NCBI GenBank assembly: GCA_003153935.1
Contig: PMCA01000031.1
Location: 1 to 41,684, forward strand
Direction of reading: 5' to 3'
Source: Elusimicrobiota bacterium
GTDB lineage: Bacteria > CAYTYR01 > UBA6262
Length of the DNA: 41,684 bases
In this document: positions 24,277 to 41,684 of the stretch, in pieces
Layout: each line of letters starts with the position of its first letter
How positions within the stretch are numbered: the stretch's first letter is position 1
Position numbers and translations under genes: made by a program
Notes under the pieces: model-generated
What the model was told of the DNA's origin: nothing
Seen by the model: the letters and a program-made list of their open reading frames with translations, nothing else
The model's database searches: none

Positions 24277-24293
24277 TTAACTAGGTTCACTCC

Positions 24294-25771: not shown

Positions 25772-25781
25772 TGTTCGCTCC

Positions 25782-26867: not shown

Positions 26868-27370
26868 ATTCCCTCAATGTAAGCGGCTATTCTGGCCACT
26901 ACTTCGTCTATGGATAAACCTGAAGTATCCACCATCTGGTCACAGTCCCGGTAAAATGGTTCACGCTGGGCCAGCAATTCTTTTATACGGCCCAATTTAT
27001 CCTGTTCGTTGGCAAGCAAGGGCCTGGTCTTGGCATCGCCTACCCTTTTGAGTATCGCTTCAGGCGTGGCCGCGAGATAGATTATTTTTCCCTGTTGCCT
27101 CAGCTCCTTCAAGTTTTCTTTACGCAGGACCGCCCCGCCGCCGGTAGCTATGACGTAATTATCCAACAGGGCAAAAGCCTGGATGGCTTTGCTCTCCAGG
27201 TCGCGAAAGGCGGGTTCACCCATTTTTTCAAATATTTTGGCAATAGGCATTCCCGTATCTTTTTCGATCTTTTCATCTATATCCAGGTATTTTAGCCCCA
27301 GTTTTTTCGCCAGGTTCCTCCCGACTGCCGTCTTGCCACTGGCCATAAAACCGGTTAACACTATATTCAT
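26864..27370 (-). CDS. aroK: shikimate kinase
   Basis: Phosphorylates shikimate at the 3-position. Walker A is FMASGKTAVGRNLA near residue 8, the shikimate-binding DIDEKIE follows near 32, and VIATGGGAVLR near 75 and TRPLL near 115 complete the family pattern. Length 168 aa. The ATG shares one base with the aroC TAA (TAATG). Confidence 0.96.
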   Translation of the reverse strand: MNIVLTGFMASGKTAVGRNLAKKLGLKYLDIDEKIEKDTGMPIAKIFEKMGEPAFRDLESKAIQAFALLDNYVIATGGGAVLRKENLKELRQQGKIIYLAATPEAILKRVGDAKTRPLLANEQDKLGRIKELLAQREPFYRDCDQMVDTSGLSIDEVVARIAAYIEGI

Positions 27371-28500
27371 TAAAACCTCTTAATTTGTTCCATATATCCA
27401 TGGAAATTACGTTTCATTTCAGTCAGGCTGTCGCCGCCCAGTTTTCCCTGCAGGGCGCGGGCCAGTTCAAAGGCGACCGCGTTCTCGGCTATCACGCCTA
27501 CCGCCGGTACCGCGCAGACATCCGACCTCTCGACTGTCGCTTTAACATGCTTCTTGGATCTGATATCCACGCTGGACAACGGCTTCAACAGAGTCGCGAT
27601 CGGTTTCATGGTAATCCGCAAAACAATATTCTCGCCATTGCTCATGCCGCCTTCGATACCGCCGGCATGGTTTGAGCTGCGGCCAAACCCTTTTTTATCA
27701 TAGTTAATGGCATCATGAACACGGCTGCCCGGTAATTCTCCTACTTTTGTTCCCAGGCCTATCTCCACCGCTTTAATTGCCTGGATGCTCATTAAAGATT
27801 GTGCCAAACAGCTGCAAAGTTTCAGGTCCCACTGGGTGTAACTGCCTAATCCGGCCGGCACACCGACAGCAACTATCTCTAACACACCGCCCAGGGTATC
27901 GCCTGCTTTTTTAGCGTGGTCGATCAATTTGATCATTTCCCCTTCCGCCTTTTTGCTGAGACAGCGAACAGAAGAGTTCTCTATAAGCTGCCATTCTTTG
28001 CCGGTCAGTTCCCAGACTGAAGCATCTTTGACCTGGCCGATCTGCACCGTGCGGCTGAAAACAGCGATCTGGAATTCCGCCAGCAGTTCTTTACAAATGG
28101 CACCTACCGCTACCCGGGCCGCCGTTTCACGGGCGCTGGCGCGCTCTAGGACATCCCGGATATCGCTAAATCCGTACTTCAACGCTCCGGCCAGGTCGGC
28201 ATGACCCGGACGCGGCGCGGTTACCGGAGCGATTTCCTTGTTCTGCCAATTCTCCCAATCCCGGTTATTGATCATTAAACCAATAGGTGAAGCGATCGTC
28301 CGGCCATGGCGCAATCCGGATATTATCTGCACCCGGTCCTTCTCGATCTGCATGCGCTGGCCGCGTCCATAGCCGACCTGTCTCCGGCTAAGTTCAACGT
28401 TGATATCTTCCTCCGTGACTTTCAAGCCCGCCGGCATGCCGTCCAAGATAGCCATCAGGGCCTGGCCGTGCGATTCACCGCTGGTTAAAAATCTTAACAT
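27370..28500 (-). CDS. aroC: chorismate synthase
   Basis: FMN-dependent last step of the shikimate pathway. LRFLTSGESHGQAL is the N-terminal signature; RRQVGYGRGQRM, RPGHADLAGALKYG, RASARETAARVAVGAI and SNHAGGIEGGMSNGENIVLRI are the conserved flavin and substrate segments. Length 376 aa is normal. GGAG precedes the ATG by 7 nt. Confidence 0.97.
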   Translation of the reverse strand: MLRFLTSGESHGQALMAILDGMPAGLKVTEEDINVELSRRQVGYGRGQRMQIEKDRVQIISGLRHGRTIASPIGLMINNRDWENWQNKEIAPVTAPRPGHADLAGALKYGFSDIRDVLERASARETAARVAVGAICKELLAEFQIAVFSRTVQIGQVKDASVWELTGKEWQLIENSSVRCLSKKAEGEMIKLIDHAKKAGDTLGGVLEIVAVGVPAGLGSYTQWDLKLCSCLAQSLMSIQAIKAVEIGLGTKVGELPGSRVHDAINYDKKGFGRSSNHAGGIEGGMSNGENIVLRITMKPIATLLKPLSSVDIRSKKHVKATVERSDVCAVPAVGVIAENAVAFELARALQGKLGGDSLTEMKRNFHGYMEQIKRF

Positions 28501-28512
28501 TTTTGGTCTCCA

Positions 28513-29349
28513 TTATTTGTTTATGGCCTGGCGCATAACTGCCACCGGGGCTTTCTTGCCTGTCCAGAGCTCAAAGGCAATGGCGCCCTGGTTGATCAGC
28601 ATACCCAGCCCATTGGCATGTTTTATTTTACGATGGGCCGCTTCTTTCAGCAACGCAGTCTGGCGATTATAGACTATGTCATAAATAAAAAGTTTTTTCG
28701 TCAATAGTTCCGGTTCCACTACGCAGGGGTCATGCTCTTTCATGCCCACCGGGGTGGCGTTGATAAGTATATCCGCGTCCTTTAATACCTGACCGATCTG
28801 CTCCCGTTCTATCTTCTCGACCTTGGTAGAGGTAGCTATCTTAGCCAGGTCGGATGCTAATCCAAGTGTTTTCTCCTGAACTACGTCATACAGGAAGACG
28901 CTCTTGACGCGCTGGCCCAGCAGACTTACGCCGATGGCCCGCGCCGCCCCGCCCGCGCCCAGCAATAATATTTTCTTGCCCGCCAGGGTTTCCTTGCTCT
29001 CCTCCGCCAGGCTGCGGATAAAACCGCGGCCATCCGTGTTATCCCCGATCAACCGCCCGTGAACATTCACGATGGTATTGACCGCGCCGATGTTCCTGGC
29101 CTCGGGGCTCAGGTCATCCAGCAGGCCGATGACTTTTTCCTTGTGCGGGACAGTGATATTCACGCCGGCAATATTCAGGGCCCGCAGGGCCTTGATTCCC
29201 GTCGCCAGGTCCTCCGGGGCGATGTTGAAAGCCAGGTAGACCATGTCCAGCCCCAGTTCCTTGAAGGCCGCGTTATGCATATCAGGCGATAGTGAATGTT
29301 CCACCGGCCAGCCAAAAATGCCGCATAATTTCGTTTTCGCACTGATCAT
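28513..29349 (-). CDS. aroE: shikimate dehydrogenase
   Basis: NADPH-dependent reduction of 3-dehydroshikimate. FGWPVEHSLSPDMHN binds shikimate, NITVPHKEKVI holds the catalytic Lys, DNTDGRGF the catalytic Asp, and LLGAGGAARAI is the nucleotide-binding loop. The ATG at 29349 is chosen because AGAGGA lies 4 nt upstream. The TTG at 29370 would place the start inside repeat array D. With this start the protein is 278 aa, typical. It leads the aro set in the order aroE, aroC, aroK, aroB, aroQ; aroA and the DAHP synthase gene are not in the window. Confidence 0.96.
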   Translation of the reverse strand: MISAKTKLCGIFGWPVEHSLSPDMHNAAFKELGLDMVYLAFNIAPEDLATGIKALRALNIAGVNITVPHKEKVIGLLDDLSPEARNIGAVNTIVNVHGRLIGDNTDGRGFIRSLAEESKETLAGKKILLLGAGGAARAIGVSLLGQRVKSVFLYDVVQEKTLGLASDLAKIATSTKVEKIEREQIGQVLKDADILINATPVGMKEHDPCVVEPELLTKKLFIYDIVYNRQTALLKEAAHRKIKHANGLGMLINQGAIAFELWTGKKAPVAVMRQAINK

Positions 29350-29363
29350 ACGTTCCTCTTTTT

Positions 29364-29393
29364 CTATCAACTACCAACAATCAACTATCAACT
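29364..29393 (-). repeat. 30-nt heptad repeat array D (four AGTTGAT-type units plus AG)
   Basis: On the minus strand AGTTGAT occurs three times with one variant TGTTGGT, plus AG: exactly 30 nt, the same size and consensus as array C. It starts 4 nt after the pmbA TAA and ends shortly before the aroE ribosome binding site (GATAGAAAAAGAGGA). Every unit contributes TGA or TAG. Confidence 0.85.
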
Positions 29394-29397
29394 TTCA

Positions 29398-30738
29398 TTA
29401 CTCTCCGCTGATCATAACTTCTTTTATTTTTAAGGTCGGACAGCCGACGTTACCGTAAAACCTCAGGTCATTGCCTATCTGCTCTATATTCTGCAGCAGG
29501 TCCAATACGTTACCGGCCATAGCCACTCCCTGCACCGGATAAGACATCCGGCCGTTCTCCACCCACAACCCGCTCACGCCTACGCTGAAATCCCCGCTGA
29601 TCGGATCAACGGTATGCATACCCATAACTTCCATTACGTACAATCCTTCTTTTACCGACCCTAAAAGAGCTTCCCGCGAAATAGTGCCCGGCTCGAGAAA
29701 GAAATTATTTACGCCTACTCCCGGCGCGCCCATGAATGAGCCCCGGCTGGCGTTGCCGGTGCTGGCGACTTTGTCCCGGCACGCGGAATAGCTGTCGTAT
29801 AAAAAGGCCTTCAGGACGCCCTTATCTACCACCATCGTTTTACGGGTGGGTACGCCTTCGTCGTCAAAGGGACTGGTTCCTAAACCGCCGGGCTTGGTGC
29901 CGTCATCCACGATACTGATGAAACCCGGAGCGATCATTTTATCCATTTTACCGCTGAACGGCGATTTTTTCCGTTGGATGTTATCCGCGCAGATCCCGCT
30001 GGCCAGCACGGCCAGGAATTCACTGCCGACATAGGGATCGAGAAACACCGGAATCTTCCGGGTCGGGATGGACCTGGCCCCCAGCATGCTGACGGTGCGG
30101 AATACCGCCTGGCTGATCAGGTCCTTGAAATCAAGCTCCCGGAAATATCTTTTAGTCTGGCTTTCCCCGCCAACCTGTATTTTAGTGTCTTGTTCGGCCT
30201 TTAGCTCCACTAGGGTGGAAAAAAAAGTTTCCCTCCAGCTTACATCGACACCGTTGGTGTTCATAATCGTCTGCTCGAACAGGCTGTCGGTATAGGAAGC
30301 GGCCAACACTTTGGTTATGCGCTTGTCAGGAGTCATGGCGTCCGCAGCCAGGGAGAATACCCGGTCCATTTTTTCCGACCCTTCCATTGTCTCGATCACC
30401 GGGTCAAAGACCGCCAGCTTATCCATAGCCAAGGCCGCCGGGGAGTTTCCCTGCGGCAGGCAGTTGAACTCATCCCGGACGTTGAACTCCGCGTTACGCA
30501 GAGCCAACTTTATGAACTCATCCGCGTCCAGGCCAGCCTGGGTGCTGTAAGCCAGCCCCCATTTCTTATCCTTCAGTAACCTGATCCCGATGCCGATATC
30601 GCCAAAGAGATTAAATTTCTCGCAACGGGAGTCGCTTACCTCTATGTTGATACCTTTGCTCTCCGACAGGAATACCTCGCCTTCCAGCCGGTATTTATTC
30701 CGCAGCAGGCCTATTAAGTTTTTGGCTAATTCCTTCAT
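29398..30738 (-). CDS. pmbA: PmbA/TldE-type subunit of the TldD-PmbA protease
   Basis: A 446-aa TldD/PmbA-family protein lacking the HExxxH motif of TldD, so it is the non-catalytic PmbA (TldE) side. SPFDDEGVPTRKTMVVDKG, the SRGSFMGAPGVGVNNFFLEPG region and GDFSVGVSGLWVENGRMSYPVQG match the C-terminal half of the family. It should pair with TldD at 6350-7753 to form the barrel-like heterodimer. GAGG lies 5 nt before the ATG. It follows the small membrane protein by 7 nt. Confidence 0.9.
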   Translation of the reverse strand: MKELAKNLIGLLRNKYRLEGEVFLSESKGINIEVSDSRCEKFNLFGDIGIGIRLLKDKKWGLAYSTQAGLDADEFIKLALRNAEFNVRDEFNCLPQGNSPAALAMDKLAVFDPVIETMEGSEKMDRVFSLAADAMTPDKRITKVLAASYTDSLFEQTIMNTNGVDVSWRETFFSTLVELKAEQDTKIQVGGESQTKRYFRELDFKDLISQAVFRTVSMLGARSIPTRKIPVFLDPYVGSEFLAVLASGICADNIQRKKSPFSGKMDKMIAPGFISIVDDGTKPGGLGTSPFDDEGVPTRKTMVVDKGVLKAFLYDSYSACRDKVASTGNASRGSFMGAPGVGVNNFFLEPGTISREALLGSVKEGLYVMEVMGMHTVDPISGDFSVGVSGLWVENGRMSYPVQGVAMAGNVLDLLQNIEQIGNDLRFYGNVGCPTLKIKEVMISGE

Positions 30739-30745
30739 CTGGTCC

Positions 30746-30955
30746 TCATTTGGAAGAAAAACTCATAAACAAAGCGATAAAAGCCAGTACCAAGAAAAAA
30801 ACTCCTATCATCCGGCGGTGCTTCAAAATATATTTATCGTTAAAAACGAATTGCCGGCCCCAATCATTCACTTTGATGACCAGGTCAGGGCGGAACAGGT
30901 AGCCGATACTGAACATCAGGGTGACCATGCCGACCAAAAATTTCAGGATCTTCAT
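30746..30955 (-). CDS. small membrane protein with two helices, function unknown
   Basis: A 69-aa protein: helix 1 at residues 4-22 (FLVGMVTLMFSIGYLF), a polar middle with KYILKHRRM, and helix 2 at 48-66 (MIGVFFLVLAFIALFM). The ATG overlaps the stop of the TPR-protein gene as ATGA, which supports it as a real gene. It belongs to the block with the ABC-2 exporter and TPR protein. I do not recognise the family. Confidence 0.7.
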   Translation of the reverse strand: MKILKFLVGMVTLMFSIGYLFRPDLVIKVNDWGRQFVFNDKYILKHRRMIGVFFLVLAFIALFMSFSSK

Positions 30956-31674
30956 TTGGACCCTATCTTAACCGCTAAGGCGGCCATTTTATTCCGAACC
31001 TGCCCGGCCTGAGAGGGGAAACGCCGTCCGATCACTTCCCACAGGGTATAGGCTTTACGGTAGTCATTATTCTTCTCGTAAGTATTTGCCAGCACGCGCA
31101 GCAGGATCATGGGGCTTTCTTCATAATCTACTACATTCTGCAGCATGTTGATGACATGCGCGTAATCCTTGACTTTATCATAACCAAGAGCGGCCAACGC
31201 GTAATTCAGGCGCCAATAATGGATATCTTTAGGATTATAGTTCCAGACAATACCCTCTTTAAGTAAAATCACGGCTTCATCGTATCGCTCCTGGACAAAA
31301 CCTATCGAGGCGCTGCCGATGTTGTAAACATGAGTAAAATACGGATCCAGCCAGACCGCGCGTTCGCACAACGGGAAGAGCTGCTGGTAAGCCCATTGCT
31401 CCGAGTCGTGCTCATATTCCGCCCCGGGCATTTCCGGCTCGCCTTCCGTGGGACCGCCGTAGTACTGCAAGGTCTTGACCCACACCACATCAGCGGCCAG
31501 GCTTCTCAGGCCTAGGAAAAGACCGCCCAACTCCAGGTACGGGTTATCGCTGACAAAATGCATGGTCGCCAGCGGCGGGAAGGGATAAATATATTCACTG
31601 TCTATGGCCGCTCGCAGACGCCATAATGCTACCAGCAGAATCAGGAGTACCAATACCACTAATACCTTACGCAC
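30952..31674 (-). CDS. membrane-anchored TPR-like protein in the ABC-2 exporter operon
   Basis: Residues 3-20 form a single N-terminal anchor. A region with NPYLELGGLFLGLRSLAADVVWVKTLQYYG follows, then helical repeats from about residue 95 (WAYQQLFPLCERAVWLDPYFTHVYNIGS, YDEAVILLKEGIVWNYNP, NDYRKAYTLWEVIGRRFP) that look like three or four TPR units facing the periplasm. The GTG start has GGAG 7 nt upstream and lies one base after the permease stop. The tight linkage suggests it is an accessory to the exporter. Its own family is not known to me beyond the TPR fold. Confidence 0.7.
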   Translation of the reverse strand: MRKVLVVLVLLILLVALWRLRAAIDSEYIYPFPPLATMHFVSDNPYLELGGLFLGLRSLAADVVWVKTLQYYGGPTEGEPEMPGAEYEHDSEQWAYQQLFPLCERAVWLDPYFTHVYNIGSASIGFVQERYDEAVILLKEGIVWNYNPKDIHYWRLNYALAALGYDKVKDYAHVINMLQNVVDYEESPMILLRVLANTYEKNNDYRKAYTLWEVIGRRFPSQAGQVRNKMAALAVKIGSK

Positions 31675-31675
31675 C

Positions 31676-32440
31676 TTAAAACTCCTTACGGGAGAATAGC
31701 AGGTTCCCGATGAACAGGACGATCGCGGTATAAACCAGGCTGTACAATAATACCAGCGCGATGATGTGCATGGGCATTACTTCGGGTATATACAATTTAT
31801 CCTTCAGGTTCAAATACTGAAAATTCGGCACCAGGTAATACAAGGCTGACAAAAAGACCTTGGTAACCGGCGCGGTCACCTTATCGGACAGTATCCTCAG
31901 CTCATTGGAAAAATGGCCGATGATCCAGACCATAAAGCTGAAAGCGATCGCCGTAACCGTGGAGGTGAAGACCAGACTGGCAGTCAGGGCCACTGATACG
32001 ATAATGATCAGCTTGAAAAAGATGGTTATCACGCTCCAGAACAGCATAGCGTCCCATTGCCAGTTACTGGCGAATTTTAGCAATAAGACCAGTACGGAAA
32101 GCATCAGTAATATGTTAATGAATAGTATAACCAGCACTCCCAGGTAACGCCCCAGGATATATTCCCACCGGTGCAGGGGCCTGGTCATCAGCAGGTAGAT
32201 GGTCCGGTTCTCGATCTCCTGCAGGACCAGGTTGACCGCGGCGAAAATACCCGCCATGAAACTGAAAAGCTCAATGCAGGCCAAACCGATATCGGTGATG
32301 ACCCGCGCCTCCGTGTCGGGTGAAAGGGAGGAAAATACCAGTGCCGCCCCCACCATGACCAGGATGAACATCAACAGGATGTAAAAGATCTTGCCGCGGA
32401 TATTTTCTTTGACCGTGTATTCGGCGATAGGCAGGATCAT
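31676..32440 (-). CDS. ABC-2 type transporter permease
   Basis: A 254-aa membrane protein with about six helices. The cytoplasmic start YTVKENIRGKIFYILLM and the first loop motif NLVLQEIENRTIYLLMTRPLHRWEYILGRYLG are the ABC-2 permease signature. The ATG overlaps the ATPase stop (ATGA). With the ATPase at 32437-33186 it forms a complete exporter. The cargo is unknown. Confidence 0.88.
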   Translation of the reverse strand: MILPIAEYTVKENIRGKIFYILLMFILVMVGAALVFSSLSPDTEARVITDIGLACIELFSFMAGIFAAVNLVLQEIENRTIYLLMTRPLHRWEYILGRYLGVLVILFINILLMLSVLVLLLKFASNWQWDAMLFWSVITIFFKLIIIVSVALTASLVFTSTVTAIAFSFMVWIIGHFSNELRILSDKVTAPVTKVFLSALYYLVPNFQYLNLKDKLYIPEVMPMHIIALVLLYSLVYTAIVLFIGNLLFSRKEF

Positions 32441-33186
32441 GCGGCCACCTCCGCGGGCATCACCAGCTTCAGGAATATCTGTTCCAGCTCGTCGCCCTTG
32501 CTGGTTAAGTCGGCCAGGTTCACGATCCTGGCTAGCTTTCCTTCTACGATTATACCTACCCGGTCGCAGACTTTGACCACTTCGCTGATAATATGCGAGC
32601 TTAAGATAATAGTTTTTTTTCTTTCTTTCAAGCGCAGTATCAAAGCGCGCATTTCGGTGATGCCTACAGGATCCAGGCCGGTGATCAACTCATCAAAGAA
32701 CAGGACTTTCGGGTCATGGATCAGGGCCTGGGCGATACCCACCCGTTGCAGCATGCCCTTGGAAAACTCGCTTAATCTTTTATGGCGGTTGGCCGTCAAG
32801 TTGACCAGCTCCAGTATTTCTTCGATCTTCTCTCCCCGCACCCGGTCGGGCACGCCGCTGACTTTCCCGTAGAAATCTATGATCTCCTGGGCGGTCAGGT
32901 AACGGTAGAAATATGGTGATTCTGGCAGATAGCCCACCAGGTCGCTGGCGGCGCGCGCCGGGACCTTGTGGCCGTAAATAAAACAATTGCCGCTATCAGG
33001 CCGCAACAGGCCCAGTAACAATTTAATGGTCGTGGTTTTACCCGCCCCGTTCAGGCCCAGCAAACCGAAAGTTTCACCCTCGTTTATTTCCAGGTTCAGG
33101 TCCTTCACGCCAATGCTCTGCTTGGTTTTAAGCAGGTATCTTTTCTTGTAGATCTTGGTAACGTTCTCGATCTTAACCGCCAGCAT
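32437..33186 (-). CDS. ABC transporter ATP-binding protein (ABC-2 exporter type)
   Basis: Energises the adjacent permease. Walker A is GLNGAGKTTT near residues 44-53, the signature motif is LSEFSKGMLQRVGIAQAL near 136-153, and Walker B is VLFFDELITGLDP near 158-170; an H-loop (LSSH) follows. In the signature motif, SKGM in place of SGGQ is common in this export subfamily. Walker B has an extra Ile (ELITGLDP where EPTSGLDP is usual). The ATG at 33186 is used, not the one at 33258: GGAGGG lies upstream and it shares one base with the acetyltransferase stop (TAATG). Confidence 0.92.
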   Translation of the reverse strand: MLAVKIENVTKIYKKRYLLKTKQSIGVKDLNLEINEGETFGLLGLNGAGKTTTIKLLLGLLRPDSGNCFIYGHKVPARAASDLVGYLPESPYFYRYLTAQEIIDFYGKVSGVPDRVRGEKIEEILELVNLTANRHKRLSEFSKGMLQRVGIAQALIHDPKVLFFDELITGLDPVGITEMRALILRLKERKKTIILSSHIISEVVKVCDRVGIIVEGKLARIVNLADLTSKGDELEQIFLKLVMPAEVAA

Positions 33187-33650
33187 TATTTCTTCCCTCC
33201 GGGCATATAGACCAGGCAGATTTCGTCGCAGTTTGGGAACTTGGGGCATTTTATGCATTCGTTCCAGATCTTATGCGGCAGTTCGTTCTTATCTATAACG
33301 GCAAACCCGTGCTTGGAAAAAAATTCCGGTTTATAGGTCAGCGCGAATACTTTCTTGATACCCAGCTGCTTAGCTTCTTTGAGACAGGCCGTCAATATCT
33401 TGGAGCCCAGGCCCAGCTTCTGGTAGTTCTTGTCCACGGCAAAACCCTTAACCTCCGCCAGGTCCTCCCAGTCAATATGCAAGGCGCCGCAGGCCACCAC
33501 TTTGCCTTTATCCTCGATCACAAAGAAGTCGCGCAGATTCTCATAGAGTTCGTTCAGGGCGCGGGGCAGCATTTCTCCCCGGTTGGCAAAGAAGTTGATC
33601 ACTTTTTGTATTTCCGCGACATCTTTAATTTTAGCTTTACGCAGTTTCAT
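33186..33650 (-). CDS. N-acetyltransferase, short ArgA-like (probable amino-acid N-acetyltransferase)
   Basis: GNAT fold of 154 aa. VKGFAVDKNYQKLGLGSKILTACLKEA is the acetyl-CoA binding loop. The C-terminal FFSKHGFAVIDKNELPHKIWNECIKCPKFPNC is a block I associate with the short N-acetylglutamate synthase-like proteins of arginine synthesis, with three Cys that may bind a metal. GGAG precedes the ATG by 6 nt. It lies between the gamma subunit of the oxidoreductase and the ABC transporter. The glutamate substrate is inference. Confidence 0.78.
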   Translation of the reverse strand: MKLRKAKIKDVAEIQKVINFFANRGEMLPRALNELYENLRDFFVIEDKGKVVACGALHIDWEDLAEVKGFAVDKNYQKLGLGSKILTACLKEAKQLGIKKVFALTYKPEFFSKHGFAVIDKNELPHKIWNECIKCPKFPNCDEICLVYMPGGKK

Positions 33651-33659
33651 TCTCTGCTC

Positions 33660-34199
33660 CTATTTACTGAATTCGTATCCGGCTTTTATGGCTTTCTTGT
33701 TTATTTCCTGCAGGCCGGCTTTCTTACCTGTTAACAGGGTGGCTAAGGCTTCATTTACCGAACTTAACTTTACCACCGGCTTTATTTTCAAGTAAGTTCC
33801 CAGCGCCACCATATTGGCCACCCGTATGTTACCCAGCTGTTCGGCTATTTCCGACGCCGGTACTTGAGAAACACCCTGGACGATATTTTTAAGCGCTTCC
33901 GGCTGCACCAGGGTGGAATTTACGACTAGTTGCCCTTCCTTCTTCAGTTTGCGGTGGAACCGGTCCAGCGAAGGCTGGTTCAAGATGATCAATGTATCGG
34001 GAGCGCTGACCAGCGGAGAACCGATCTCTTCATCGCTGATGATAACGCTGGCATTGGCCGTGCCACCCCTGACTTCCGCGCCATAGGCGGGAAAGAAAGT
34101 GACGAACTTGCCTTCCAGCATAGCGGCCTGGGCCAGCAGCGTCCCGGTAAACATGACTCCCTGTCCGCCGAAACCGGCGACGATCAATTCCTCACGCAT
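33660..34199 (-). CDS. korC: 2-oxoacid:ferredoxin oxidoreductase, gamma subunit
   Basis: The 179-aa gamma chain of a CoA-dependent 2-oxoacid oxidoreductase. ELIVAGFGGQGVMFTGTLLAQAAM is the start seen in all gamma chains, followed by YGAEVRGGTANASVIIS. It overlaps the beta-subunit gene by 8 nt with AAGGA 5 nt before the ATG. It completes the four-gene set that starts at 36196. Confidence 0.88.
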   Translation of the reverse strand: MREELIVAGFGGQGVMFTGTLLAQAAMLEGKFVTFFPAYGAEVRGGTANASVIISDEEIGSPLVSAPDTLIILNQPSLDRFHRKLKKEGQLVVNSTLVQPEALKNIVQGVSQVPASEIAEQLGNIRVANMVALGTYLKIKPVVKLSSVNEALATLLTGKKAGLQEINKKAIKAGYEFSK

Positions 34200-34932
34200 A
34201 AATATCCTTTATGACGCCCAGCGGGAACTGTTTAGTCATATCTTCCTGCACGAATTTCAGTGATTCCTTCAGCGACAGGCCCCAGTTAGGCGGACATTGT
34301 GATAAAACCTCTATCAGCGAATAGCCCTTATTTTCTTTCTGCATCTCGAAAGCTTTCTTTATAGCCTTTTTGGTATTGATTATGTTCTTAACATTATTCA
34401 CCGCGCATCTTTCCAGATAGGCCGTGCCTGCCAGCGTAGCCAGTAATTCGCAGACCTTAATGGGATAGCCGGCCAGGTTTTTATCACGTCCAAAAGGCGT
34501 GGTAGTAGTCTTCATTCCTAACAATGTCGTAGGCGCCATCTGCCCGGTGGTCATGCCGTATATGGCGTTATTGATAAAGATAACGGTTATATTTTCGCCG
34601 CGGTTAGCCGCATGAACTGTTTCCGCCATACCGATGGCCGCCAGGTCGCCATCGCCCTGGTAGGTAAATACTATCCGGTCCGGCAGGACCCTCTTGATCC
34701 CGGTAGCCACGGCCGGCGGGCGTCCATGCGGAGCTTCGGTCACATCAAAATTCCAGTAATCGTAGGCGAATACCGCGCAGCCAACAGGCGCAATGCCGAT
34801 GGTCCTCTCTCTGACTCCCAGTTCGTCTATGACCTCCGCTACCAGCCGGTGTACAAGTCCATGCCCGCAGCCTGGGCAATATTTATGTTCGATATCGGTC
34901 ATGCTTTCTGGTTTGCAGTAAACTTTTTTCAT
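34192..34932 (-). CDS. korB: 2-oxoacid:ferredoxin oxidoreductase, beta subunit (TPP-binding)
   Basis: Binds thiamine diphosphate and a 4Fe-4S cluster. YCPGCGHGLVHRL near residue 18 carries cluster cysteines. The TPP and Mg2+ motif is GDGDLAAIGMAETVH followed by NNAIYGMTTGQMAPTT near 119. Length 246 aa matches the small beta chains of Kor/Vor enzymes. The ATG overlaps the alpha-subunit stop (ATGA). It needs thiamine diphosphate, and the same gene series encodes thiC and thiD2. Confidence 0.88.
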   Translation of the reverse strand: MKKVYCKPESMTDIEHKYCPGCGHGLVHRLVAEVIDELGVRERTIGIAPVGCAVFAYDYWNFDVTEAPHGRPPAVATGIKRVLPDRIVFTYQGDGDLAAIGMAETVHAANRGENITVIFINNAIYGMTTGQMAPTTLLGMKTTTTPFGRDKNLAGYPIKVCELLATLAGTAYLERCAVNNVKNIINTKKAIKKAFEMQKENKGYSLIEVLSQCPPNWGLSLKESLKFVQEDMTKQFPLGVIKDIYA

Positions 34933-35969
34933 ATCTTCTCAATTTCCTTTAAAATTTCTTCTTCGGTCGGCATACCGCCGCCCGCCCGGCCGTAAAAATG
35001 TACCGGCTTACGGCCATTAACCGCCAGTTTCACATCCTCTACCATCTGACCCGCGCTCATCTCCACCGTCAGGAAAGCTTTAGCCGTCCCAGTCAATTCT
35101 GCAATCGCTTTTACCGGGAATGGCCATAAGGTCAGCGGTCTTAACAGCCCCACGCTCAGGCCTTTTTTCCTCGCTGCCAGCATGGCGGAATAACAAACAC
35201 GTGCGCTGGTACCGTAGGCGACCAGTATAATGTCAGCTTTTTCCGTGTTCTGCTTCTGGCATCGTTGTTCCTGTTCTTTTATTACTTTATATTTCTTCTG
35301 CAGTTTTATATTATGCTCTTCCAGTGCCCCTTCTTCCATCAACAATGATCTTATTTTGCGTGGTGCCCGGCCTTGGCAGCCATCCAGCACCCAGCTCCGG
35401 TCGCCGTGATAGGTAGAATCAACTTTAACTTCCTCCATCGGCTCCAGGATCTGCCCGACTACGCCATCAGCCAGGATCATCACCGGATTGCGGTATTTCT
35501 CGGCCAGGGCGAACGCCTGCGCCGGCATCTCGAACATCTCCTGCACTGATGACGGCGCCAGGACGATCAAATGGTAATCGCCATGCCCGCCACCCTTGGT
35601 GGCCTGGAAATAGTCCGCCTGTGAACCGGCAATATTTCCCAGACCGGGACCGCCGCGCTGGACATTGACGATAAGAGCGGGCAGTTCACATCCGGCCATA
35701 TAGGACAGGCCTTCCTGTTTAAGGCTGATACCGGGGGAAGACGAGGAGGTCATGGCCTTGACGCCGGCGGCGCTGGCTCCCAGCACCATATTAATGGCGG
35801 CCAATTCGCTCTCGGACTGGAGAAAAACCCTCTTTTCTTCCAGCATCCGTTTAGACATATATTCGGTCAACTCGTTCTGCGGGGTTATGGGGTAGCCAAA
35901 ATAGGCGGCGCAGCCGGCTTTGATCGCGCCTTCACCCAGGGCCTCATTACCCTTCATTAGTTTTTTCAC
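34929..35969 (-). CDS. korA: 2-oxoacid:ferredoxin oxidoreductase, alpha subunit (VorB/KorA type)
   Basis: A 346-aa alpha chain starting KLMKGNEALGEGAIKAGCAAYFGYPITPQNELTEYMS, the pyrimidine-binding domain. It is followed by SSSSPGISLKQEGLSYMAGCELP and GGGHGDYHLIVLAPSSVQEM, both highly conserved in chains annotated as VorB (3-methyl-2-oxobutanoate) and KorA (2-oxoglutarate). The sequence alone does not separate these substrates. The GTG start shares one base with the ferredoxin TAG (TAGTG), with GGAAGGA 6 nt before it. Confidence 0.87.
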   Translation of the reverse strand: MKKLMKGNEALGEGAIKAGCAAYFGYPITPQNELTEYMSKRMLEEKRVFLQSESELAAINMVLGASAAGVKAMTSSSSPGISLKQEGLSYMAGCELPALIVNVQRGGPGLGNIAGSQADYFQATKGGGHGDYHLIVLAPSSVQEMFEMPAQAFALAEKYRNPVMILADGVVGQILEPMEEVKVDSTYHGDRSWVLDGCQGRAPRKIRSLLMEEGALEEHNIKLQKKYKVIKEQEQRCQKQNTEKADIILVAYGTSARVCYSAMLAARKKGLSVGLLRPLTLWPFPVKAIAELTGTAKAFLTVEMSAGQMVEDVKLAVNGRKPVHFYGRAGGGMPTEEEILKEIEKI

Positions 35970-36196
35970 TATTTATCCTTCCAGATCTCGATCGCTACAT
36001 CCGGGCAAACCTGGTAGCACAGGCCGCAGGAATTGCACTTTTCCAGGTCCACGATCTCTATATAATGATACCCTTTTTTGTTGATCTTTTGGCCCAGGCG
36101 CAGGTTCTTTTTCGGGCAGGTAATAACGCATAATTCACAGCCCTTGCACTTTTGCTCGTAAATCACGATTTTAGGCATGGATTCTTTAGGTTTCAT
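35969..36196 (-). CDS. korD: 2-oxoacid oxidoreductase ferredoxin-type subunit (two 4Fe-4S clusters)
   Basis: A 75-aa ferredoxin with two CX2CX2CX3CP motifs: CKGCELCVITCP near residues 17-28 and CNSCGLCYQVCP near 53-64. It carries electrons from the oxidoreductase to free ferredoxin. It is the first gene of the long series. The ATG at 36196 lies 8 nt from a perfect -10 box and has no ribosome binding site, so it may be leaderless. The alternative is the ATG six codons in (36178), with only a weak AAAGAA upstream. Confidence 0.87.
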   Translation of the reverse strand: MKPKESMPKIVIYEQKCKGCELCVITCPKKNLRLGQKINKKGYHYIEIVDLEKCNSCGLCYQVCPDVAIEIWKDK

Positions 36197-36204
36197 AATT
36201 AATA

Positions 36205-36234
36205 ATTATACCAATTTTAAGAGGAGAGTGTCAA
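36205..36234 (-). promoter_or_regulatory. consensus sigma70-type promoter of the korD-to-pckG series
   Basis: Perfect hexamers TTGACA (36229-36234) and TATAAT (36205-36210) with an 18-nt spacer on the minus strand. The korD ATG starts 8 nt later, so transcription is predicted to begin at or next to the start codon. Confidence 0.88.
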
Positions 36235-36251
36235 TTGAAAATAAGGGAGGT

Positions 36252-37946
36252 TTAGGACTTGTGGCTAGGGGCTTGCTTAAGGAGTTCGGCGGCGTGTTTC
36301 AGGCTGATACCGGTAAGGGTTTCCCCACCCAGCATCCTGGCCAATTCGGTAACCCTGTCTTTTGGCCCCAGTTTCCTGATCTGGGTAACGGTCCGGTCAT
36401 TTTTGGCTTCCTTGCTGACCTGCAGGTGATAATCAGCCAGTCCGGCTATCTGCGGCCAGTGGGTAACACAAATGATCTGGTGCCGGCGGGATAGCGCGGA
36501 CATCTTCCGGCCCACCACTTCCGCCATATTGCCGCCGATACCGGTATCTATCTCATCGAAAATAAGCACTGGTATCTTATCGCCGCTGGCCAGCACCGTC
36601 TTCAGGGCCAGCATGATCCTGGACATCTCGCCGCCGGAAGCGATCCGCGACAAGGGCTGGAGCTCTTCTCCTAAATTGGGACTGATCAGGAACTCTATCT
36701 TCTCAGTGCCGGTGGGACCGATCAAGGGTTCTTTATTTTCATCAACCTCAGGGACCAGGCTGACCTTGAACTTTAACTTAGGCAATCCCAGGTCTTTCAA
36801 CTCCTGTTCAGACTTATGCTCCAGCTTGGTCGCCTGTTGGCGGCGGGATTCAGCCAGTTGTAAGGCAATTCGCAGGGCTTTCTTCAGGGAAACCTCTATC
36901 TTGCCGGTTAAAGCCTCCCGGTTCTCCGCCAGATTGGTCAGCTTGGATAGTTCTTTCTCGATCTTCTCCCGGTAATTTATGATATCTTTGACCGTAGCGC
37001 CATATTTGCTTTTAAGCCGGCTGATCATCTCTTTCCGTTCGATCAGCTTATCCAGCCGGGCCGGATCAAAAGAAATTTTCTCTTTATAGTTACGTACCGC
37101 GTTGTTAACTTCCTCCAGGTCCACTATCCCTTCGGCCAACAGGGCCAGGCACGGTTTCAGGTCCTCGTCATATTCCTGCAGTAGCTGCAGATGGTGCTTG
37201 CTCTTGGTCAGCTGGGATAACACTGAGTTTTCCTGGTCGTAAAGCGACTGATAGACTTCATTGGCCAGGCCAAAGATCTTTTCCGCGTTGTTCAGCAGTT
37301 TTATCTCTTTATCCAGTTCCTCATCTTCATTTTCCTGCAGATGAGCGTCCCGGATCTCTTTGGCCTGGAACTGGTACAAGTCGATAAAATGCGCCCTTTC
37401 CTTATCGCTGTTCAGCAGGTCGTTGTACTCGCGTTTAAGGCCGGAATATTCTTCATAGGCCGCGGTCATCTTTTCCCGCAGTTCCAGTAAGCCGCCGAAA
37501 TCGTCCAGTATGTTCAATTGTTCCCGCGGCAGCAGGATCGCCTGGTGCTCATGCTGGCCATGCAGGTCCACCAGCAACCCGCCGATGCTCTCCAGCATGC
37601 CCAGGGTTATCAGCTGGTCATTAGCCAGGCATTTGTTCTTGCCGTTGTGGCTGATCTCCCGCGATAATAGCAGGCTATCCTCGCCGACGGAGATTCCTTG
37701 CTCTTTCAGCAGCCGGTGCAGGGGCTTATTATCCCTGACCGCGAAGGAGGCTTTGATAACGCAGGAGTCACTGCCTTTGCGGATAATACTGCTTTGCGCC
37801 CGGTCGCCGAGTATCAGGCCCAGCGCGCCGATGATAATGGATTTGCCGGCGCCGGTCTCCCCGGTCAGGACATTGAACCCCTCCGCAAAGTCAACATGCA
37901 GATCTTCTATTAACGCATAATTTTTTATACTTAATCTTTCGAGCAT
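36252..37946 (-). CDS. recN: DNA repair protein RecN
   Basis: SMC-like ATPase acting on double-strand breaks. The N-terminal MLERLSIKNYALIEDLHVDF and Walker A in LTGETGAGKSIIIGAL are canonical. A central coiled coil covers about residues 150-350. SRIASGGEMSRIMLALK is the ABC signature and PVLIFDEIDTGIGG is Walker B. The ATG at 37946 (564 aa) is chosen because GAGG lies 7 nt upstream and family members begin here; the ATG at 37985 would lie inside nadK. Confidence 0.95.
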   Translation of the reverse strand: MLERLSIKNYALIEDLHVDFAEGFNVLTGETGAGKSIIIGALGLILGDRAQSSIIRKGSDSCVIKASFAVRDNKPLHRLLKEQGISVGEDSLLLSREISHNGKNKCLANDQLITLGMLESIGGLLVDLHGQHEHQAILLPREQLNILDDFGGLLELREKMTAAYEEYSGLKREYNDLLNSDKERAHFIDLYQFQAKEIRDAHLQENEDEELDKEIKLLNNAEKIFGLANEVYQSLYDQENSVLSQLTKSKHHLQLLQEYDEDLKPCLALLAEGIVDLEEVNNAVRNYKEKISFDPARLDKLIERKEMISRLKSKYGATVKDIINYREKIEKELSKLTNLAENREALTGKIEVSLKKALRIALQLAESRRQQATKLEHKSEQELKDLGLPKLKFKVSLVPEVDENKEPLIGPTGTEKIEFLISPNLGEELQPLSRIASGGEMSRIMLALKTVLASGDKIPVLIFDEIDTGIGGNMAEVVGRKMSALSRRHQIICVTHWPQIAGLADYHLQVSKEAKNDRTVTQIRKLGPKDRVTELARMLGGETLTGISLKHAAELLKQAPSHKS

Positions 37947-37966
37947 TAATTTTCCTCTAAACGGTT

Positions 37967-38785
37967 TTAAGCCCTTTCGCTCCATTTAAGTTTGGTGCGC
38001 AGAACTTCAAAATAATTCTTATAGGGATTGGTGATCAAATGCAGCTCTTCCTCCGCCGCCCTGATCCTGATAGTGTCATTGGCTCTTACCTTGACAGCGA
38101 CTTGCCCGTCCATAGTCAGGTTGCCTTCTTTGTGGTCTGATTTTAGGGTAACAGTTACGGTTTTCCGGGCGGGGACGATCAAGGGCCGCAGGGTCAGCAT
38201 ATGCGGGCAGATCGGCGCTATCACCAGCACCTTCATATCCGGGTAGACGATGGGACCGCCAGCCGACAGGTTATAGGCAGTAGAGCCGGTGGGCGTGGCA
38301 ATTATCAACCCGTCGGCAATATAATTGGCGACCAGCTTATTATCTACCTCCAGGTCCAGGCTGATCACTCTGGCTTCCCTGCTCATATTCACCACGACGT
38401 CATTCAGGGCCAGGTATTCACCGCGCTTGTGTCCACCCCGCCAGATCTCCGCCTTCAGCATCATTCTCTTTTCCGTGGTTACCTTACCGCTAACTATTTT
38501 GGTTAAGGTCTTGTAAAGTTCCTCCATGGTCACTTCCGTCAGGAAACCCAGACCGCCTAAATTAACTCCTAAAACCGGCACATTATATTCCGCCACCGCC
38601 CTGGCCACGCGCAGGATAGTACCATCTCCGCCCAGGGCGACTACCAGGTCATCCGGGCCCAATCTACCTTTTAGACGAGGCGAACTAATGACCGTGACCC
38701 GGTGGTTACGGAAAAACTTTTTGAGACCGCTCAAGGCGGCCAGCGCTTTCACTTTATTGGGATTGTAAGCTAACCAGACTTTCAT
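37967..38785 (-). CDS. nadK: NAD kinase
   Basis: Makes NADP from NAD with ATP or polyphosphate. DDLVVALGGDGTILRVAR holds the GGDG catalytic motif near residues 53-56. GVNLGGLGFLTEV, ALNDVVVNM and DGLIIATPTGSTAYNLSAGGPIV are further family blocks. Length 272 aa. It overlaps rsmD by 4 nt and precedes recN, a common bacterial pairing. Confidence 0.96.
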   Translation of the reverse strand: MKVWLAYNPNKVKALAALSGLKKFFRNHRVTVISSPRLKGRLGPDDLVVALGGDGTILRVARAVAEYNVPVLGVNLGGLGFLTEVTMEELYKTLTKIVSGKVTTEKRMMLKAEIWRGGHKRGEYLALNDVVVNMSREARVISLDLEVDNKLVANYIADGLIIATPTGSTAYNLSAGGPIVYPDMKVLVIAPICPHMLTLRPLIVPARKTVTVTLKSDHKEGNLTMDGQVAVKVRANDTIRIRAAEEELHLITNPYKNYFEVLRTKLKWSERA

Positions 38786-39330
38786 GATTTTATTCTCCGG
38801 TAAAAACTCAGGCGGGTATCGCCGTATTTTTCCTGCCGGAACATTTCCAGGTTGCCGGCTAAGATGGTGGTAGGTTCTTTATGGTGATGCTGGGCGATGA
38901 TCCAGCCCTCCTGTTCCAGCAGATCGTTCTGGGAAATAGCCTTAATGGTATCCATGGTTACGCCCAATTTATACGGCGGACCGACAAAGATCAGGTCAAA
39001 CTTCTGACCCAGGTTCCTGATCATATCAAAAACATTTCCCGGCAACACCTGGCCGCGGACGGCCAGCCCGGTCATCGTTAAATTATCCCGGATTATCTTG
39101 ACCGCTTCCGGCGCTTTTTCCACAAAAACAGCCTTGGCCGCGCCACGGCTAAGCGCTTCGATACCCACCGCGCCGGTGCCGGCGTAGAGATCAAGAAAAC
39201 GGCTGTTGCCGGTTCTTAACATTAAAATGTCGAATAGGGATTTTTTGATACGGGCTAGGATAGGACGAGTAGCTAAACCTGGCAGAGATTTTAATTTACG
39301 GCCTTTGGCGCTGCCGGCAATAATCTGCAC
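38782..39330 (-). CDS. rsmD: 16S rRNA (guanine-N2)-methyltransferase RsmD family, with altered motif IV
   Basis: SAM-dependent methylation of G966 in 16S rRNA by family. IIAGSAKGRKLKSLPG and RIKKSLFDIL are the N-terminal signature, and FLDLYAGTGAVGIEALSRGA is the SAM-binding motif I. Motif IV, normally DPPY or NPPY, reads GPPY here (Gly117, codon GGT at 38980-38982), so a key active-site acidic or amide side chain is missing; a single-base change from GAT would explain it. The rest of the fold looks intact at 182 aa. It precedes nadK. Confidence 0.88.
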   Translation of the reverse strand: MQIIAGSAKGRKLKSLPGLATRPILARIKKSLFDILMLRTGNSRFLDLYAGTGAVGIEALSRGAAKAVFVEKAPEAVKIIRDNLTMTGLAVRGQVLPGNVFDMIRNLGQKFDLIFVGPPYKLGVTMDTIKAISQNDLLEQEGWIIAQHHHKEPTTILAGNLEMFRQEKYGDTRLSFYRRIKS

Positions 39331-39333
39331 AAA

Positions 39334-39753
39334 TTATTCTCCGATGATTTGCATGACTACTTTACGTGAACGGGGATGCAGGTCGAAATCCACTAAAGCT
39401 ATCTGCTGCCAGGTGCCTAGCAGCAGTTTTTTGTGCTGGAACGGGACGGTCAACGAGGAGCCGATCAAGGAAGCGCGTATGTGGGAATGGCCGTTGCCGT
39501 CATGCCAGCGCATATTGTGAGCGTACTCGATCCCCTGCGGGATCATTTTCTCCATGGCCTTTTTGAAATCGGATACCAGGCCGGGTTCATGTTCTATGGT
39601 TATCAAGCCGCCGGTGGAACCGGGTATGAACAGGACTACGATGCCGTTTTTCACTTTGACATCCGACAACTCACCCTGCACTTCGGTGGTGATGTCGACC
39701 ATATCGGTTTCGCCTTTGGTCCAGAAACTCAATTCTTTCGTTACAACCGTCAT
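39334..39753 (-). CDS. YjbQ/UPF0047 family protein (secondary thiamine-phosphate synthase)
   Basis: A 139-aa single-domain protein with the UPF0047 signature: GIVVLFIPGSTGGLITIE, then HNMRWHDGNGHSHIRASLIGSS with three conserved His, and GTWQQIALVDFDLHPRSR. Members can have weak thiamine-phosphate synthase activity and bind a metal; the true role is unsettled. The window also has thiC and thiD2 but no thiE, so this protein could matter for thiamine here (inference). GGGAAGG lies just before the ATG. It follows tRNA-Ala by 31 nt. Confidence 0.9.
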   Translation of the reverse strand: MTVVTKELSFWTKGETDMVDITTEVQGELSDVKVKNGIVVLFIPGSTGGLITIEHEPGLVSDFKKAMEKMIPQGIEYAHNMRWHDGNGHSHIRASLIGSSLTVPFQHKKLLLGTWQQIALVDFDLHPRSRKVVMQIIGE

Positions 39754-39784
39754 TGCCTTCCCTTCTCTTTCTTTTCTTTAAAAA

Positions 39785-39857
39785 TGGAGGTGGGGGGATT
39801 TGAACCCCCGACCTTCTCCACGCCAAGGAGACGCTCTCCCAGCTGAGCTACACCCCC
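39785..39857 (-). tRNA. tRNA-Ala(GGC)
   Basis: A full cloverleaf of 73 nt without CCA. The acceptor GGGGGTG pairs with CACCTCC and has G3-U70, the alanine identity element. D-arm, 5-bp anticodon stem and T-arm are perfect. The anticodon loop TTGGCGT gives GGC with G at position 37, where alanine tRNAs usually have A. A73 is followed by a run of T. CCA must be added after transcription. Confidence 0.92.
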
Positions 39858-39875
39858 AACTCGCTACGCTCGTTT

Positions 39876-39907
39876 TCACAGGGGAAACTCTTTGTTTCCC
39901 CTAGTGA
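39876..39907. other. 13-bp stem-loop upstream of tRNA-Ala
   Basis: TCAC plus AGGGGAAAC pairs with GTTTCCCCT plus GTGA (one bulged base), with loop TCTTT. There is no T-run on either strand, so a processing signal or mobile palindrome is as likely as a terminator. It lies 18 nt before the tRNA 5' end. Confidence 0.5.
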
Positions 39908-39962
39908 CATTCGTCTGGACAATATGGCCTTTTTCTCTTTACTATATTGGCCAGTCCTCATT

Positions 39963-39991
39963 GTTACCCCTTCAGCACTATAACCATCAAA
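39963..39991 (-). other. possible 5' fragment of a 5S rRNA gene
   Basis: The minus-strand segment GGTTATAGTGCTGAAGGGG followed by TAAC resembles the 5' strand of 5S rRNA (GGT, then TATAGCGC, GGGGTAACACC). The match stops after about 29 nt, and no rest of a 5S gene follows. It may be a remnant or chance similarity. Confidence 0.25.
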
Positions 39992-40021
39992 CATATGGGC
40001 AACATGGTCATTCTTAAATAA

Positions 40022-40046
40022 CTATCCGCCTGGCGTAGGCGGATAG
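40022..40046. repeat. palindromic REP-like hairpin
   Basis: CTATCCGCC and GGCGGATAG form a perfect 9-bp stem around a 7-nt loop (TGGCGTA). It lies 25 nt after the stop of the coiled-coil gene and is followed on the minus strand by TTATTTAAG, so weak terminator use is possible. Such GGCGGAT palindromes are often dispersed REP-type elements. Confidence 0.55.
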
Positions 40047-40070
40047 CGACAGGATCGATTCCCTATATTT

Positions 40071-40394
40071 TTACTTTAATGGGATCTTTTTAAGTTTCCT
40101 TTTTTGTTGCGCGAACGCTGTTTTTTGTTTGCCGATTGACTTATCCATGGCGATTATCTGTTCGCATATGGCGTTCAAGTCTTTTTGTACCAGCTTGCCC
40201 TTTTTATATAAACTGAGGGCCTTAGTTCCCAGCGACATGGTCTTCATCAATTTCTGTCTCTCCAGGTCCAACTCCTGCACTTTGTGTTTACCCATCTGGG
40301 CGCCAATAACCGCGTCTTCTCCCACTACCTTGCTGATCTCCAGTGCTTTCTTCTTAATATTATCGAAGATCGCCTTCATTTCTTCGGTTTTCAT
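40071..40394 (-). CDS. small lysine-rich helical protein, function unknown
   Basis: A 107-aa protein, charged and almost fully helical. IFDNIKKKALEISKVVGEDAVIGAQMGKHKVQELDLERQKL begins it, and a probable coiled coil (ICEQIIAMDKSIGKQKTAFAQQKRKLKK) ends it. It has no signal peptide or cysteine. An ideal AGGAGG lies 5 nt before the ATG, so it is a real gene. It follows the NlpC/P60 gene by 29 nt and is probably cotranscribed with it. I do not recognise the family. Confidence 0.75.
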   Translation of the reverse strand: MKTEEMKAIFDNIKKKALEISKVVGEDAVIGAQMGKHKVQELDLERQKLMKTMSLGTKALSLYKKGKLVQKDLNAICEQIIAMDKSIGKQKTAFAQQKRKLKKIPLK

Positions 40395-40423
40395 TACTGC
40401 CTCCTAAAGTTTTATCGTCTGCT

Positions 40424-41437
40424 TTATTGCGTCTCAGGGGTCATATCCGGAAACATGTAATTCATGACCCGGCACGCGCCTTTGAAACATTTACCCCAAT
40501 AATCTTCGGTCAAATCGCCGATGGTCACTTTATGGTCGATACCAGAGGCATGCACGAATTTGCTGTCGCCGATATATATGCCCACATGGGAAATGCTTTT
40601 CCGGCCCTGTTTATGGAAAAATACCAGGTCCCCGGGCTTAAGATCTTTTATGCTGGTTCTTTGTCCGAAGGAGAACTGCTCCCGGCTGGTGCGTGGCAGG
40701 TCCAGTCCGAAGAAGCCCCACACCCTCCTGACAAAAGCCGAACAATCAATCCCCCACAGGCTTTCACCGCCGTACTTGTAGGGCAACCCCAGGTATTTCA
40801 GGGCAACGTCCACTATCTTCTGGCCGATCAGCTGGGTGGATTCCTGCGGCGATTCATCCGCCATGGTCAGGTTCTCTTTCAAGCTCTCCACTTCCGCTTT
40901 GATCTGGTTTTCATCTATATAAGGTATTTCAATGACTTTATCCCTGATCGAGACCAGCAGGCGCTGGCCCTCTTTGATAAAATCAGTCTTCATGCCGTTC
41001 AAGTGCATTATCTTTTTCTCGGTAGTCCCGTATTTCTTAGCGATCTTAAAGACGCTGTCGCCAGCTTTGACCTTGTAGTAAACCTTGACCTTCATGATCT
41101 TGGTCTGGCCCTTGACGATAAAACTCTTCCCTTCGATATTGATGGGATACCCGCTGGAAATGGATAAAAACGGGTAGGCCTGGGAATTGCTGGAAAAAGC
41201 GGACCATTTCTTGATGTCGATCAACCGCAGAGATTTTTGGGTGTTTTCTTCCAGCTCGGGGACCAGCGATACCTCATGGTTATTCTGTGAATTGAAGACA
41301 GGGCTCTGCGAAGTAAGCACTTCGGAGAACTTCTTCAAGTTGGTAGCTTTGACAATATTAGCCCACAGGTTCCCCGGTAAAAGCAGGAACAAGGAGCACA
41401 ATGCCATTATAAATTTCTTCAGTTTAAACCAATTCAT
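40424..41437 (-). CDS. LysM and NlpC/P60 domain peptidoglycan hydrolase
   Basis: Secreted endopeptidase that cuts peptidoglycan stem peptides. The ATG at 41437 is preferred to the one at 41491 because AGGGG lies 5 nt before it; residues 8-27 then form a signal peptide ending LWA. A LysM repeat (YKVKAGDSVFKIAKKYGTTEKKIMHLNG) lies near residues 120-165. The NlpC/P60 domain from about 205 has the catalytic Cys232 in GIDCSAF, His in SHVGIYIG and a third polar residue near HASG. LKPGDLVFFHK is typical. Length 337 aa. It sits 98 nt after tRNA-Leu. Confidence 0.9.
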   Translation of the reverse strand: MNWFKLKKFIMALCSLFLLLPGNLWANIVKATNLKKFSEVLTSQSPVFNSQNNHEVSLVPELEENTQKSLRLIDIKKWSAFSSNSQAYPFLSISSGYPINIEGKSFIVKGQTKIMKVKVYYKVKAGDSVFKIAKKYGTTEKKIMHLNGMKTDFIKEGQRLLVSIRDKVIEIPYIDENQIKAEVESLKENLTMADESPQESTQLIGQKIVDVALKYLGLPYKYGGESLWGIDCSAFVRRVWGFFGLDLPRTSREQFSFGQRTSIKDLKPGDLVFFHKQGRKSISHVGIYIGDSKFVHASGIDHKVTIGDLTEDYWGKCFKGACRVMNYMFPDMTPETQ

Positions 41438-41478
41438 CAATACCCCTAAAATAGAATAAAACCCCATAACCTTATAGT

Positions 41479-41507
41479 TTTTATCATACAATCGTCGTTC
41501 TTGTCAA
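41479..41507 (-). promoter_or_regulatory. probable promoter of the NlpC/P60 gene
   Basis: A perfect TTGACA (41502-41507) is followed after 17 or 18 nt by ATAAAA/TAAAAA, a weak -10. It lies just after the tRNA-Leu gene and its T-run. Confidence 0.45.
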
Positions 41508-41535
41508 GCGGTAAGAAGAGAAAGGAGAAAAAATA

Positions 41536-41619
41536 TGCCCGAGGTGGGAGTTGAACCCACAAGGTCCTACGACCACTGGTTTTTGAGACCAGCGCGTATA
41601 CCAGTTCCGCCACCTTGGC
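41536..41619 (-). tRNA. tRNA-Leu(CAA) with mismatched acceptor stem
   Basis: An 84-nt class II tRNA. The anticodon stem CTGGT/ACCAG has loop CTCAAAA, giving CAA. A long variable arm (stem GGTC/GACC) and the leucine-type D-arm (TGGCGGAA) are present, and A73 matches leucine identity. The acceptor GCCAAGG against CTCGGGC leaves A4-G69 and A5-C68 unpaired and G6-U67 as wobble, so only four Watson-Crick pairs remain. No CCA is encoded; TATTTTTT follows. Confidence 0.85.
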
Positions 41620-41635
41620 GCAAATTTAAAGAAAG

Positions 41636-41684
41636 TGGAGCTGAGGGGGATTGAACCCCTGACCTCCTGCATGCCATGCAGGCG
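41636..41684 (-). tRNA. tRNA-Ala(GGC), 3' part (cut by the window edge)
   Basis: The visible 49 nt include anticodon stem CCTGC/GCAGG with loop ATGGCAT (anticodon GGC, A37), a T-arm with TTCAATC, and acceptor 3' strand CAGCTCC with U70 and A73. It closely follows the standard alanine GGC pattern. No CCA is encoded. It lies 16 nt before tRNA-Leu, so the two are probably one transcript. Confidence 0.85.

Follow-up and report, generated by a model that had tools for sequence, protein, structure and literature searches.

The window, by which we mean the whole 41,684-nt stretch of DNA that was analysed, raises the question of how translation begins at korD, the first gene of a long minus-strand series, given that a perfect promoter ends only a few bases before an in-frame ATG and no Shine-Dalgarno (SD) sequence lies between them. 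The source organism is a member of a small candidate phylum close to Elusimicrobiota, probably UBA6262 (used as a candidate phylum name in PMC11484514 and PMC9391474). The first-pass annotation had described a TTGACA-18-TATAAT promoter 8 nt from the korD ATG at 36196 with no SD, and each of these elements is seen in the sequence; the span it gave, 36194–36234, runs exactly from the G of the korD ATG through the first T of TTGACA. The features around the start of korD are these:

36229–36234, minus strand: −35 hexamer TTGACA, matching the consensus at 6/6 positions
36205–36210, minus strand: −10 hexamer TATAAT, 6/6, with TGG just before it (an extended −10)
36199 to 36196, minus strand: predicted transcription start, from A 36199 (3-nt leader) to A 36196 (0-nt leader), placed by promoter geometry 6–9 nt past the −10
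36194–36196, minus strand: candidate leaderless korD start ATG, without an SD, which adds MKPKES to the conserved N-terminus
36182–36187, minus strand: AAAGAA, an apparent decayed SD, judged by stacked upstream sequences and energies, in the register of the GGAGAA/GGAGTG SD of relatives in another genus (g2, below)
36176–36178, minus strand: another ATG in the same frame, at the start position that relatives conserve; it has no SD here

The promoter has the features of a sigma-70-type site, with 12/12 hexamer matches and an 18-nt spacer (within 16–19 nt) whose 3' end, TGG, carries the extended −10 motif TGn. It was the sole 12/12 promoter-like site found by our promoter scan in 26000–41684, and perfect TTGACA-N16-19-TATAAT strings occur 17 times in the entire 1.75-Mb genome, compared with three for the reversed pattern. 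Eight bases, TATTAATT, separate TATAAT from the ATG at 36196–36194 (minus strand), and the protein read from it begins MKPKESMPKIVIYEQKC. It should be noted that this ATG is found in a single genome, the sole member of its genus compared, and that we estimate a chance of about 1 in 20 for an accidental in-frame ATG, with an open frame, to arise in this interval.

No SD of at least 4 nt was found upstream of either ATG 36196 or ATG 36178. The duplex energy with the anti-SD is −2.8 kcal/mol at 36196 and −1.0 kcal/mol at 36178, and the median over 356 sampled genes is −6.4 kcal/mol, taking the best candidate start of each. These energies use a generic anti-SD tail (ACCUCCUUU), which was assumed because a search of the assemblies of the window's genome and of two relatives (G001 and G003, below) found no 16S rRNA.

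The genes downstream of the promoter were called with a home-made codon-score predictor and are arranged as follows:

35969–36196, minus strand: korD, a 2×[4Fe-4S] ferredoxin-type delta subunit of a 2-oxoacid:ferredoxin oxidoreductase
34929–35969, minus strand: korA/vorB, with a GTG start, a 1-nt overlap with the korD stop (TAGTG) and the SD AAGGA
33660–34932, minus strand: korB and korC
16108–33650, minus strand: the remainder of the operon, with in its first part a GNAT gene, an ABC transporter pair, a pmbA/tldD-type gene, aroE-aroC-aroK-aroB-aroQ and an M24 peptidase, and in its second part efp, accB, accC, a SIS-domain gene, a nucleotidyltransferase, thiD2, thiC, a periplasmic binding protein and pckG
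16047–16078, minus strand: intrinsic-terminator-like hairpin 30 nt past pckG, with a 14-pair stem, a 4-nt loop and a T-tract

The best NCBIfam matches of KorD, 2-oxoglutarate oxidoreductase delta among others, fall below the curated cut-offs. In all, 25 genes were called on one strand from 36196 to 16108 with gaps of at most 47 nt (two gaps are of this length and become shorter if upstream ATGs are used), and of the 24 genes after korD, 18 show an SD of at least 4 nt at their best candidate start. The order korDABC, GNAT, ABC pair, pmbA/tldD-type gene and aroE is common to two relatives, G003 and G002, within the stretches sampled, and aroC, aroK and aroB also follow aroE in G002. The existence of a single 20-kb, 25-gene operon from korD to pckG is well supported because there is a strong promoter at its head, the gaps are short, a terminator lies at its end and the gene order is conserved. 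The terminator just past pckG agrees with the end point given in the first-pass annotation for its suggested 20-kb operon. A few minus-strand promoter-like sites of 10–11/12 lie inside operon genes, where internal transcription starts are possible, and the promoter at the head may not serve all 20 kb alone. We also note at 21870–23706 the accB–accC pair and the shikimate run aroE-aroC-aroK-aroB-aroQ within the korD unit; shikimate genes, accB–accC, thiC/thiD2 and pckG together make an unusual mix for a single operon.

The window's genome (G000) was compared with four relatives from the phylum, three of which belong to the same family and another genus (G001–G003, together g2) and one to the same class (G004). 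The korD sequence of G003 is identical to that of Elusimicrobia bacterium UBA6262, and that of G001 to that of bacterium STB_115; it is on these matches that we take the phylum to be UBA6262. The g2 genomes are like the window in having a perfect korD promoter (TTGACA-17-TATAAT in all three) and in downstream gene order, but differ in the distance from the −10 to the korD start (108, 91 and 127 nt in G001, G002 and G003), in a folded leader, and in an SD, GGAG, that precedes a start homologous to 36178. These leaders fold better than shuffled sequences (z of −2.0, −3.1 and −3.6 in the same order). G004 also has an SD at this start, and the duplex energies at the 36178 homologue are −6.8, −8.5, −6.4 and −5.9 kcal/mol in G001–G004, far from the window's value. 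An ungapped stacking places the GGAG of the three g2 genomes over AAAG of the window in the same register, and the window species seems to have lost its SD and gained a 5'-proximal AUG. These arrangements, like the promoter, distances, absent SD and operon layout of the window, are observed directly.

The g2 leader is CTAG-rich, is about 85–120 nt long between the perfect promoter and the SD, and may regulate the kor–aro operon; in G002 it has a terminal stem in which the predicted 5' end pairs with bases just before the SD. No riboswitch or known leader was matched in Rfam at gathering thresholds in the five korD loci (the window and the four phylum relatives). We had also considered that the g2 leader might be a dispersed repeat, and dropped this idea when its core motif was found once in a 253-kb g2 sample and not at all in the G000 sample.

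A wider set of korD loci was then used to compare the N-termini, the means by which the first-pass annotation had proposed to decide between ATGs 36196 and 36178. From 110 loci we kept korD matches at E 1e-8 or better and removed copies with an identical 60-nt start, the window itself and loci with less than 60 nt upstream, which left 93, and in 77 of these the start lies within two codons of the 36178 position. The 36178 start is the conserved one, with a strong SD in the four closest genomes, which goes part of the way towards the result that the first-pass annotation named as a refutation; but the SD has been lost in the window and the homologue of 36178 is itself leaderless-like in just over half of the Elusimicrobiota loci compared. 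Seventeen Elusimicrobiota/Endomicrobia loci were picked by record title, omitting L015, whose contig is truncated at korA. In ten of them a promoter of at least 10/12 has its −10 ending 6–12 nt before the ATG (mean 0.26 and maximum 2 in 200 shuffles), and in nine of the ten the distance is 6–9 nt and no SD is present. The leaderless-like ATG in these loci is the homologue of 36178, not the upstream ATG. The same promoter geometry was found at no other korD locus among the 93 (76 others, if all 17 belong to the 93).

We consider it likely that the korD message is leaderless or has a leader of 0–3 nt and is read from AUG 36196, and this is the best reading of a perfect promoter that lies 8 nt away with no SD. 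The first-pass proposal of a leaderless message is nevertheless unproven at korD because the relatives start at 36178 and the choice of AUG 36196 rests on one genome. The place of the transcription start, the reading from AUG 36196, leaderless initiation as such and the order in which the two arrangements arose are all deduced from DNA sequence. Housekeeping sigma-70-type RNA polymerase would initiate 6–9 nt past TATAAT, at 36199–36196, and the resulting korDABC...pckG message would have a 0–3 nt leader. KorD would be translated from the 5'-proximal AUG 36196 by the leaderless route, in which the ribosome with initiator tRNA assembles on a 5'-terminal AUG, and the distal genes would use ordinary SDs, beginning with korA and its GTG overlapping the korD stop. 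This arrangement would have replaced an ancestral one with a longer leader and an SD-led korD start at 36178.

The same promoter and transcription start could instead serve the conserved AUG 36178 behind an unstructured leader of about 18–21 nt with no real SD, leaving ATG 36196 as an accident. The predominance of starts at this position among the korD loci is what one would expect if it were so; folding predicts an unpaired 5' end with the first 19 nt open, and non-SD starts do occur in the genome (in the G000 sample, no candidate start has a 4-nt SD for 20 of 123 first genes). We regard this as rather unlikely, since the duplex at 36178 reaches only −1.0 kcal/mol, compared with −5.9 to −8.5 kcal/mol in the four relatives, and an in-frame 5'-proximal AUG lies 18 nt upstream. 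It is also conceivable that korD is carried mainly on a longer message, either reading in through recN or begun at a different upstream promoter, and that the perfect promoter is minor or inactive. In the window recN ends 55 nt upstream of korD on the same strand, our scan found no minus-strand terminator in the gap between them, and read-through may occur. However, a 12/12 promoter with an extended −10 is present here, all three g2 genomes have a perfect korD promoter of their own 91–127 nt upstream, where korD also appears to head its transcription unit, and in G003 recN shares a contig with korD but is some 8.5 kb upstream of it, all of which make a dominant longer message improbable. We suggest that korD heads its transcription unit because it has its own promoter here and in relatives and because recN is not adjacent in G003.

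From korD, the ATPase gene and possibly tldD, the first-pass annotation had gone on to suggest that leaderless initiation is normal among the first genes of this lineage. We think this very improbable, and the suggestion fails on the counts. The 378-kb G000 sample contains 123 first genes, and for 103 of these an SD of at least 4 nt precedes some candidate start. A duplex energy of −5 kcal/mol is reached by 71% of the 356 G000 genes at the best candidate start and by 27% of a shuffled control that was allowed one start per gene, so that the contrast is somewhat inflated. Promoters of at least 10/12 at 5–10 nt before the start were found for only 4 of 112 first genes in G000 (0.3 expected from shuffles) and 2 of 102 in g2 (shuffled 0.4), and for 7 of 92 in an Endomicrobia sample (shuffled 0.5). 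−10-like hexamers 5–9 nt before the start are hardly commoner in-frame (16) than out-of-frame (9 and 1), although a statistic based on −10 hexamers alone was rejected as too noisy, its peak 0–1 nt before starts being mostly TA-rich chance or misassigned starts. A Deinococcus plasmid, MP1, was tried as a positive control and gave 0/20 first genes, which is uninformative since the thresholds demand a −35.

What does favour a wider role is the presence of several conserved leaderless-type genes and a small excess of ATGs 4–9 nt past perfect promoters in the five phylum genomes (16/89, compared with 12/89 at 12–17 nt). In 16 Elusimicrobiota/Endomicrobia genomes the corresponding counts are 96/527 and 53/527. 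Thirteen of the 17 perfect G000 promoters have a called gene within 400 nt, and three of the 17 have an ATG at 6–8 nt without an SD, namely korD, a radical-SAM gene and an Rrf2-type regulator (the names radical-SAM, Rrf2 and larB-like were given by sequence motifs). In two of these three leaderless-type cases the coding-based start is a later codon, and the ATG at 6 nt was preferred because of homologues. The radical-SAM gene has an ATG 6 nt past TATAAT in G000 and G003, and TATAAT lies exactly 6 nt from the ATG of a larB-like gene in G003 and G001 and of a membrane-protein gene in G003, G002 and G001; the N-termini of these genes and of the Rrf2-type gene are fixed by homology. The 8-nt distance at korD slightly exceeds the 6 nt of these conserved cases. 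In G000 the perfect promoter of the Rrf2-type regulator ends 6 nt before the ATG, but in G001 the spacing is 20 nt and a GAGG SD is present, apparently a second SD/leaderless switch. Leaderless starts therefore seem to be real here and some are conserved between genomes, yet they are a minority and SD initiation dominates.

Two other genes in the window had been offered alongside korD. The ATPase gene has TTGAAA-17-TATAGT 9 nt from ATG 8753 and has a leaderless appearance in both G002 and G003, but in G001 an SD leader precedes it. For tldD (ATG 7753) the TATGAT 13 nt upstream is present as described, but the case is weak, with no convincing −35 found, and we rejected it as a good leaderless example. 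The window also holds a second perfect promoter at 8802–8830 (plus strand), TTGACA-17-TATAAT, for a plus-strand gene at 8869 with an SD leader and 38 nt from the −10 to the start; this gene is divergent from the ATPase gene (7854–8753, minus strand) and a similar divergent pair occurs in G003. At 7753–7880 (minus strand) a hairpin with a T-tract (CAGGG...CCCTG, TTTTTTATT) separates the ATPase gene from the second pmbA/tldD gene, which therefore probably starts its own unit.

That bacterial genes in the first position of operons can be leaderless, with the −10 some 12 bp upstream, is established (PMC3160421, PMC12340547, PMC5397173). The TA-led genes of Zheng et al. 2011 (PMC3160421) resemble korD in having TANNNT as a −10 about 12 bp from the start, no SD, an operon-first position and SD-led distal genes; at korD, TATAAT ends 8 nt before ATG 36196 and there is no SD at this start codon. 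Unlike those genes, korD also has a full −35. The −10 motif that adjoins ORFs in Deinococcus-Thermus, with its −10 box about 6–7 bp upstream and a leaderless mRNA (PMC12340547), is likewise similar to korD, but in D. radiodurans is described for roughly a third of the ORFs, compared with only ~4% of sampled first genes in the window's genome. The main text of the PMC3160421 survey contains none of the strings Elusimicrobi-, TG1 and Endomicrobi-, and among the literature returned by our searches, which paired "leaderless" with Elusimicrobi- or Endomicrobi-, we found no report of the pattern for this group, nor one of leaderless initiation in this candidate phylum.

Since leaderless initiation is already well known in bacteria, korD is another instance of it, and is noteworthy for the apparent switch from SD to leaderless initiation at one operon. 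We tentatively propose that, at this one conserved operon promoter, the window's genus gave up both its SD and a folded leader of about 90–130 nt, was left with no leader at all and took a new upstream AUG into use, and that Elusimicrobiota reached or kept a leaderless korD at the older start. If this is true, korD would be a recurrent site of leaderless initiation, with a natural series of SD-led and leaderless states in sister lineages. With both states, SD-led and leaderless, present in related genomes at a single conserved operon, the change could be traced base by base, and the locus also serves as a warning that gene-start prediction in such lineages can choose the wrong ATG.
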